Shown here in pieces: positions 1 through 38,087 of a stretch of DNA of 38,087 nt. The first letter of the stretch is position 1, and every line of letters begins with the position of its first letter. Source of the DNA: a virus. The notes beneath the pieces are model-generated. The model did no database searches, had not been told where the DNA came from, and was given only the letters and a program-made list of their open reading frames with translations. The stretch spans positions 1 through 38,087 of the IMG/VR virus record IMGVR_UViG_3300049893_000866; one strand, given 5' to 3'. A program made the position numbers and the translations under genes.

Positions 1-131
1 GACCACGACCGCGACCCCGACCGCGACAGCGACCGCGACCGCGACCTATCAAATCCTTCTCGGAGTAAGACCTGGTTCATTACTTTTTATCTCTTGGTAA
101 ATCGTGATTCCATCTCGCAGCGTCGACAACT
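1..131. repeat. Terminal overlap, left copy
   Basis: Bases 6-131 are identical to 37962-38087 by direct comparison; position 5 is A here and G in the other copy, and 1-4 match. The copy holds the end of the hexamer tract and the last codons of the gene at 80-418. This shows a circular or terminally redundant molecule, or an assembly-graph overlap inside the repeat. It is not two loci, so one copy should be removed before gene counting. Confidence 0.9.
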
Positions 132-418
132 GCTCCTCTACCGACGATAACCTCACCCATAGGTTCTATCTCGTTTAGAGTTCCATTTTTTAAGGCGTCA
201 GAGAATCGGCCAGTGTCGGGAATCCACGCGGCGTCTTCTAAGATGATCTCCTTCGGAGTAACTCGCTTTACTCTTCCGGTGTAATATAAGGTAACAGTCC
301 TAATAAGGTAAGCTTGTCCGACTTGATACGGAGACTCTGACTCTGACTTAGCCCTACCGCCTTTTAAAAGGCTTTGAATGTTTTTTAATTCTTTGATCGT
401 TAATTCGTCTATTTTCAT
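80..418 (-). CDS. Conserved small phage protein, function unknown
   Basis: The product is 112 aa. An AGGAGA ribosome site lies just before the ATG. The core (about residues 35-110) carries the phrases LIRTVT, YYTGRV, ILEDAAWI, DTGRF and WNHDLP. I recognise these from a widespread family of uncharacterised phage and bacterial proteins, and no activity is established for them. It probably forms a small beta-rich fold; the first 30 residues are a short helix. It lies 9 bp downstream of the NlpC/P60 lipoprotein gene in the leftward operon. Its TAA stop overlaps an ATG (TAATG) that opens into the hexamer tract. Its 3' end is repeated at 38036-38087 because of the terminal overlap. Confidence 0.85.
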   Translation of the reverse strand: MKIDELTIKELKNIQSLLKGGRAKSESESPYQVGQAYLIRTVTLYYTGRVKRVTPKEIILEDAAWIPDTGRFSDALKNGTLNEIEPMGEVIVGRGAVVDAARWNHDLPRDKK

Positions 419-2096: not shown

Positions 2097-2642
2097 CTAG
2101 CCGAAGACACGGATAAATCCAAGGAGATCGTTTACGCCGTACCCGCCGATCAGCCTATTCTTTAAGTAAACCCCCCCGCCGTCTCGATCGAATCCATCAG
2201 AATTACTTGTATTCCCCTCGATGCTCTGAAACGTCCCGTTATGGTTATTCTTTAATAAGACCCCGATATGCCCTTGCGTCGTTCCTCGCTTGTTCCAGAC
2301 GACGAGATCCCCAGGTACTGCGTCCTTACCTGTCACGCGTTTACTCTCTGGAGTTCTATTCCAGATCGTTAGACAGTGCCCTGACTTAAAAGCATTCGAC
2401 CTAGGATAATTAGGATCTAAGACCTTAGCCTGTTTCTCTACTGCGTCTAGACAAAAGAACACGAATGCCGCGCACCACGGATCTCCCTTAGCTATAGAGA
2501 CTGATCTCTGAAACAGTTCTACTAGCTGGCCTTTATTGTTCCCGCCTATCTCAGTTACTCCAAGCCACCTGTTGCATTCTGCTACATAGAGCCCACGCAT
2601 TGCTTCGGGAGTAATCTTTATAAAATTAGGAAACGTCTCCAC
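2097..2642 (-). CDS. CHAP-domain endolysin
   Basis: The product is 181 aa from a GTG start that overlaps the upstream gene by 17 bp. It carries a single CHAP-type amidohydrolase/peptidase domain: catalytic Cys57 in PWCAAF, then GDLVVW, His125 in GHIGVL, and Glu142 with Asn144 in the SIEGNTS motif. CHAP enzymes cut the peptide part of peptidoglycan. No signal peptide or separate wall-binding domain is seen, which is usual for a single-domain endolysin released through a holin. The two following genes encode membrane proteins, so this looks like the main lysis cassette. It lies on the leftward strand, not at the end of the virion genes. Confidence 0.85.
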   Translation of the reverse strand: METFPNFIKITPEAMRGLYVAECNRWLGVTEIGGNNKGQLVELFQRSVSIAKGDPWCAAFVFFCLDAVEKQAKVLDPNYPRSNAFKSGHCLTIWNRTPESKRVTGKDAVPGDLVVWNKRGTTQGHIGVLLKNNHNGTFQSIEGNTSNSDGFDRDGGGVYLKNRLIGGYGVNDLLGFIRVFG

Positions 2643-33912: not shown

Positions 33913-34266
33913 CTAGTTCTTAGCCGCCGTTTTTTCAACATACTGGAGATCGGAAGCCTTAACGACGTAGACTGTTTTAAGGTTTCCATTCTTATCATTA
34001 TAAGATCTAGAAGTAAGCCTTCCTGCGATCCTAACCTTGTGGCCTTTAGAGAACTGGGAGAGGTATTCCGCTAGGTGTTCCCAAGCTTCTAGCTCTAGCC
34101 AAGTGCTTGGCCTATAGTTCCCATCTTTATCCTTGCCCTCGTAAAGACTAACCTTTGCGGTGCAAACTTTTTTACCTATGCTTGTTTCTCTTATCTGATT
34201 AACTGCGTAGATCGTAGCCGTATCCGTAAAGTTTACCTTTGGCTTGTATTGCTTCGTGTTTTCCAT
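33913..34266 (-). CDS. ssb: Single-stranded DNA-binding protein
   Basis: The product is 117 aa. It has the OB-fold pattern of SSB: VNQIRETSIGKKVCTAKVSLYE, WLELEAWEHLAEYLSQFSKGHKVRIAGRL, then a final strand with YVVKASDLQYVEK. The family coats ssDNA in replication and recombination. The usual acidic C-terminal tip that recruits partner proteins is missing (it ends TAAKN), while the adjacent gene product ends in a tip-like NDLPF. GAGGT precedes the ATG, in an AT-rich 29-bp gap that could hold a weak promoter. Confidence 0.88.
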   Translation of the reverse strand: MENTKQYKPKVNFTDTATIYAVNQIRETSIGKKVCTAKVSLYEGKDKDGNYRPSTWLELEAWEHLAEYLSQFSKGHKVRIAGRLTSRSYNDKNGNLKTVYVVKASDLQYVEKTAAKN

Positions 34267-37804: not shown

Positions 37805-38008
37805 TTACTTAAATTTAAAAAGACTACCGCGACCACGACCGCGACCACGACCACGACCACGACCACGACCGCGACCCCGACCGCGACCCCGACCACGACC
37901 GCGACCCCGACCGCGACAGCGACCGCGACCCCGACCACGACCGCGACCCCGACCACGACCGCGACCGCGACCCCGACCGCGACAGCGACCGCGACCGCGA
38001 CCTATCAA
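37805..38008 (-). CDS. Possible (Gly-Arg)n repeat protein
   Basis: Read from a TTG at 38008 the product is 67 aa: a Met-Ile start, about 29 Gly-Arg units with two Cys-Arg variants, and the end GSLFKFK. AGAAGG lies 2 bases before the TTG, which is too close to be ideal. In this frame the changing base of the hexamer is the third base of Arg codons (CGC, CGT, CGG), so 26 of 28 units are synonymous. A competing frame starts at an ATG (38036) that overlaps the preceding stop as TAATG and reads Ser-Arg/Trp/Gly; there the variants change the residue. RG repeats bind RNA in known proteins. It may equally be non-coding repeat DNA. Confidence 0.35.
   Translation of the reverse strand: MIGRGRGRCRGRGRGRGRGRGRGRGRGRGRCRGRGRGRGRGRGRGRGRGRGRGRGRGRGRGSLFKFK
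37831..38002. repeat. Hexanucleotide tandem repeat (GACCNC)n
   Basis: Twenty-eight full units plus GACC: 12 GACCGC, 8 GACCAC, 6 GACCCC and 2 GACAGC. Longer periods are visible, such as GACCAC-GACCGC-GACCCC recurring. No stop codon occurs in any of the six frames. It lies between the genes at 80-418 and 37604-37795 on the closed map. Copy number at the window junction is uncertain because the assembly overlap falls inside it. Confidence 0.95.
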
Positions 38009-38087
38009 ATCCTTCTCGGAGTAAGACCTGGTTCATTACTTTTTATCTCTTGGTAAATCGTGATTCCATCTCGCAGCGTCGACAACT
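37957..38087. repeat. Terminal overlap, right copy
   Basis: This matches bases 1-131 with one mismatch (37961 against 5). It includes the final hexamer units and, at 38036-38087, the last codons of the gene annotated at 80-418. Confidence 0.9.

Follow-up and report, generated by a model that had tools for sequence, protein, structure and literature searches.

A hexamer repeat at the ends of a phage contig lies in a recurrent gene pair of a predicted Sm-fold protein and a Ser-[Arg/Gly/Trp] low-complexity protein

Sm and LSm proteins, such as archaeal SmAP, eukaryotic Lsm1-7 and, as a further Sm protein, bacterial Hfq, have a five-strand barrel, and some carry flexible extensions: eukaryotic SmD1 and SmD3 have Arg-Gly tails and Hfq has disordered tails. 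In FET/FUS low-complexity sequences, RGG domains and SR proteins, small spacers alternate with Arg or aromatic stickers. Here we describe a phage gene pair that combines related features. The first gene (gene A) shares the predicted barrel with the Sm/LSm proteins, but it lacks a match to curated Sm/Hfq models, a conserved AAWIADTGRF stretch is particular to its family, and the low-complexity part of the phage pair is a separate, coupled gene (gene B). Gene B shares the spacer/sticker alternation with the FET/FUS, RGG and SR proteins; unlike these, it is a free-standing phage protein with a strict two-residue period (Ser-X) and a three-residue alphabet at X, and it has no homology to them. The DUF6948 (PF22253) phage proteins are similar to gene A in fold and are likewise followed by an alternating low-complexity ORF. 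However, gene A does not match PF22253, and the partner of DUF6948 reads Gly-[Ser/Tyr/Asp] whereas that of gene A reads Ser-[Arg/Gly/Trp]. As in the poly-GR dipeptide repeat proteins, an open Gly-Arg frame is present in arrays of the TCG type, but here it is neither conserved nor coupled to a start.

The window analyzed is the complete IMG/VR virus record IMGVR_UViG_3300049893_000866 (38,087 nucleotides), and its features are listed in Table 1. Bases 47-131 repeat the last bases of the record exactly, which means that the genome is a circle and that assembly broke it inside the repeat. The tract appears again in bases 1-46, and the difference of one hexamer between the two tract copies is probably why the exact end repeat went unnoticed. 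Joining the ends places the tract directly behind the leftward ORF of gene A. Tandem repeat detection (TRF) reported it at 37826-38002 with a period of 6, 29.5 copies and a score of 242. An earlier note on this DNA had described 28 units of which 26 differ at one base only; the observation that all but two units vary at a single base stands, while the numbers are corrected to 29 and 27. The 27 TCG-NGG units comprise 13 CGG, 8 TGG and 6 GGG on the minus strand.

Table 1 Features of the window (38,087 nucleotides).
Feature	Position	Strand	Description
gene B, second copy, 5' part	1..80	-	from the wrapped contig ends; one hexamer shorter
terminal overlap	47..131		identical to 38003-38087; contig closes to a circle of ~37.95 kb
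gene A	80..418	-	112 aa, predicted Sm/LSm fold; stop TAA 82-80 overlaps the gene B ATG 80-78 of this copy (TAATG)
CHAP endolysin	2097..2642	-	upstream of gene A, same leftward gene set
single-strand DNA-binding protein (SSB)	33913..34266	-	same leftward gene set
gene B	37824..38036	-	70-aa ORF: MNQVLLREGFDR + (Ser-[Arg/Trp/Gly/Leu])29 + TAG; same layout behind gene A in 119/136 distinct loci
hexamer array	37827..38000	-	29 units, 27 TCG-NGG and 2 TCG-CTG; the previously noted tract in its likely translated frame
gene B leader	38001..38036	-	12 aa, MNQVLLREGFDR; consensus MNxAxLRxGFDx with gene A subfamily i

The same note had read the tract leftward as poly(Gly-Arg) under purifying selection. 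It overlooked an ATG at 38036-38034 that overlaps the stop codon of gene A as TAATG and opens the Ser-[Arg/Gly/Trp] frame, which runs to a TAG just where the tract ends and contains two Leu at X. Leftward translation of the tract within a coupled operon, as the note had proposed, is very probable; it does encode an Arg-rich low-complexity phage peptide, but in the Ser-[Arg/Gly/Trp] and not in the Gly-Arg frame. The frame GGT-CGN is open and the changes in the window are indeed synonymous in it. Yet it has no ATG in the window or in most TCG loci, and the variation that is synonymous there is non-synonymous in the coupled Ser-X frame, which removes the argument for purifying selection on a Gly-Arg peptide.

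In order to avoid a bias toward the DNA pattern, relatives in IMG/VR and GTDB were fetched by gene A and not by the hexamer; counts from the IMG/VR scans are lower bounds and should be read as at least the number given. Among the matches listed, gene B follows gene A in 119 of the 136 distinct loci with at least 200 nt of downstream sequence, and several of the remaining gene A loci carry a degenerate gene B. The two genes overlap at the start of gene B in most of 139 pairs (74 overlaps of the ATGA type and 12 of the TAATG type, among the matches listed). Conversely, loci picked by DNA pattern alone carried gene A in 75/120 cases for TCGNGG and 61/120 for TCTNGG, again among the matches listed. 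The AGCNGG scan was weak (7/120 among the matches listed) because many of its matches are antisense Gly-Ser repeats. In IMG/VR contigs selected by DNA pattern only, the array is usually preceded by an ATG of the Ser frame at ~20-50 nt and followed by a stop codon of this frame no more than a few bases from where it ends; the other frames usually lack such a placement. No gene A-gene B fusions were found among these loci. In several phages, gene B is present in tandem copies that each start at an ATG of their own, which explains many of the frame-shifting spacers between arrays at some loci. For 51 of 211 gene B ORFs, gene A was not detected upstream; some of these adjoin sister-type partners (see below) or tandem gene B copies, others are unexplained. 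At one locus (L053, 1304-1675, minus strand), seven short GGTCGN arrays are separated by frame-shifting spacers that tandem ATG-led copies do not explain.

The leader of gene B differs with the type of gene A: MNxAxLRxGFDx accompanies subfamily i, and KQKYR or RGRYRRW accompanies subfamily ii. These types were named after inspection of the data; independently of them, a Mantel test showed that leader and gene A similarity covary (r 0.405, 0/2000 permutations; 0.293, 0/2000 within subfamily i alone). Such covariation can reflect docking or co-inheritance. Neither Pfam nor PHROGs has a match for gene B, which MW202573 annotates as a hypothetical protein in the same Ser-X frame. The GTDB contigs with gene A number only seven, all from MAGs of mixed phyla, so that no host is claimed. 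It is well supported by the sequences that the pair recurs across hundreds of uncultured phage contigs, and it appears to be undescribed: a search among open-licence papers returned no description of gene A, gene B or the pair.

We found that the encoded dipeptide is conserved between phages and the hexamer is not. Among 72 arrays not picked by DNA, the dominant Ser codon is TCG in 43, AGC in 12, TCA in 8, TCT in 7 and AGT in 2, while within one array a single Ser codon is used nearly exclusively and the non-synonymous base varies. Since TCN and AGY are not exchangeable by a single synonymous step, it is the peptide and not the DNA that is conserved. The Gly-Arg frame of the AGC, TCT, TCA and AGT arrays reads Gly-Ala, Gly-Leu, Gly-His/Gln or Gly-Val, and Ser-[Arg/Gly/Trp] is kept. 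These codon swaps thus contradict the expectation that substitutions stay synonymous in the Gly-Arg frame across relatives; in other phages, the only frames that render the variable base synonymous lack conservation from one phage to the next. A control hexamer, GGACGN, which would be synonymous for Gly-Arg, occurred with gene A at 3/120 loci among the matches listed, all three encoding Thr-[Arg/Gly/Trp]. By ATG placement, Ser codon classes and the control hexamer, Gly-Arg is therefore not the conserved translated frame; the codon classes of Ser lead us to reject it, and we give a selected Gly-Arg peptide hardly any credence.

Within arrays, X is Arg, Gly and Trp at frequencies of.325,.285 and.284, and all three residues are present in 116 of the 119 arrays with at least 12 units. 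At the first base of X, 55% of units carry a non-modal base, as compared to 3-10% at the other five positions. Among the 1661 units of the codon-unbiased set, 994 encode a residue other than that of the array majority and 108 depart from it synonymously. Length differences between close relatives are 12, 30, 42, 54, 60 or 162 nt, i.e. mostly whole hexamers, in line with the multiples of 6 anticipated earlier; two more diverged pairs differ by 39 and 63 nt. Their other changes lie mostly at codon position 1. Array lengths come from metagenome assemblies, in which repeats may be mis-sized, and contigs often break at the repeat. Arg is encoded by CGG only in 83 arrays and by AGG only in 29, while six arrays are mixed and one is mostly CGG. 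Targeted hypermutation at the variable base is disfavoured by this exclusivity, owing to which the units appear to be a reshuffling of three types already present and not new mutations. The variation fits arrays built up as three unit types are duplicated and shuffled; they would grow and shrink by hexamer duplication, and selection would keep a roughly equal mix of Arg, Gly and Trp. Some arrays depart from this alphabet: Thr-[Arg/Gly/Trp] replaces Ser beside distant gene A homologues at three loci (L373, L450, L458), and two others (L124, L125) contain repeated Met-Tyr-Trp insertions with Val/Glu at X.

Gene A is covered by no Pfam, PHROGs or NCBIfam family and has no significant sequence match in the PDB; among 56 members, neither an Sm or Hfq sequence profile (Pfam, NCBIfam, PHROGs) nor PF22253 gave a match. 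Structure prediction points to an Sm/LSm fold. The AlphaFold2 models of both subfamilies are confident (mean pLDDT 92.9 for gene A of the window, and pLDDT 89.8 for the other subfamily), and the predicted topology is a five-strand bent barrel. The PDB hits listed by Foldseek for both subfamilies are almost all Sm/LSm chains, with NatC subunit chains as the main others (best E 4.9e-4 and 5.9e-4, which are moderate E-values; TMt up to 0.78).

The antisense Gly-Ser matches of the AGCNGG scan led to a sister module, in which a DUF6948 protein precedes the (Gly-[Ser/Tyr/Asp])n ORF, often written GGC-TCC/TAC/GAC, in 35 of 42 cases, part of this set having been found via the array itself. Cultured phages with this pair are Pectobacterium phage Ymer, Iodobacter phage PhiPLPE, Vibrio phage IKEMa6-1 and Chlorobiaceae phage CV-1-33. 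DUF6948 with an overlapping (Gly-[Ser/Tyr/Asp])n ORF was seen at L226, L247, L273, L304, L582, L583, L584, L585 and L588-L592. In Chlorobiaceae phage CV-1-33 (L582, 1780-2025), gene25 is annotated as an (Ala-Met/Leu/Lys) repeat; the coupled ATG frame reads Gly-[Tyr/Asp/Ser/Glu], and the annotation is probably out of frame. Both modules are present at one locus (L105), where gene A is paired with Ser-[Arg/Gly/Trp] and DUF6948 is paired with Gly-[Ser/Tyr/Asp/Glu]; the neighbour protein there matches PF22253 at 1e-32. A further domain, e.g. VYFVDGIPC, is joined to some of the Gly-[Ser/Tyr/Asp] arrays (L247, L304, L277 and L586).

Outside the pair, we found no fixed neighbour. Recombination genes (RecT, Erf, Sak4, NinB and exonucleases, assigned by PHROGs on representatives) recur within 4 kb, at ~32 loci by cluster membership among the matches listed. 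The pair in the window also lies near an NlpC/P60 lipoprotein, and that of MW202573 adjoins a repressor, far from a peptidase.

The above results make it nearly certain, from the sequences, that the module and its Ser-X frame are real. As the best explanation, at a probability of about 0.5, we propose that the gene B tract belongs to a conserved Sm-fold/low-complexity module that would act as a condensing scaffold; for the condensing mechanism as such, our confidence ranges from tentative to even. By composition and alternation, gene B is a repetitive low-complexity chain with multivalent Arg and aromatic residues, as in condensing proteins of the FET/SR type. The product of gene A would assemble into a ring of the Sm type and bind RNA or single-stranded DNA. 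Gene B consists of a short leader, which would dock on gene A, and of Ser, rarely Thr, alternating with Arg, Gly or Trp. With Arg/Trp as stickers and Ser/Gly as spacers, this chain would act as a multivalent, condensing scaffold where early recombination or replication of the phage takes place.

Several other roles were weighed against this scaffold. Gene B might be a protamine-like nucleic-acid compactor or an RNA chaperone that works without phase separation, with gene A as its carrier. The Arg/Ser-rich chain, the Sm-like partner and the early DNA-metabolism neighbourhood agree with such a function, but DNA compaction would not be expected of the acidic sister version and ~29% Trp together with ~29% Gly is unusual for a compactor, so that we regard this alternative as possible but unlikely. 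The opposite charge of the sister chains favours a role in multivalency or material properties over a charge-specific interaction. It is also hard to square with a single cationic mode of action, as would be expected if gene B were an Arg/Trp-rich membrane-active peptide that aids lysis or poisons the host and is restrained by gene A. Although the composition and, in the window, the adjacent CHAP endolysin and NlpC/P60 lipoprotein are suggestive of such a peptide, neighbours elsewhere are often recombination genes and the MW202573 pair lies next to the repressor, which renders this improbable.

Finally, the repeat might act as DNA or RNA, for example as a recombination hotspot, origin iterons or a packaging site, with the ORF being incidental. 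This would suit a long tandem array in a recombination neighbourhood at which contigs frequently break. It is very improbable considering that the hexamer varies between phages (TCGNGG, AGCNGG, TCTNGG, TCANGG, AGTNGG), that only the encoded dipeptide is kept, and that the start of gene B is coupled to gene A in most loci.

Overall, what appeared as an odd repeat becomes a recurrent, apparently undescribed protein pair in hundreds of phage contigs, of a type that annotation pipelines miss or place in the wrong frame. The cultured phages PhiPLPE, CV-1-33, IKEMa6-1 and Ymer, which have the sister pair, make the module testable now. The arrays would provide a clear natural record of selection on low-complexity sequence, in which synonymous sites are uniform and a three-residue alphabet is mixed. 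The pair links predicted Sm-fold proteins to low-complexity partners in phages. More speculatively, the two modules may represent a general two-gene phage device, in which an Sm-fold protein and a strictly alternating low-complexity protein, in two chemistries, would form a condensate around recombination or replication intermediates; as part of the same tentative reading, this device might correspond, in prokaryotes, to the Sm proteins that carry Arg-rich tails.
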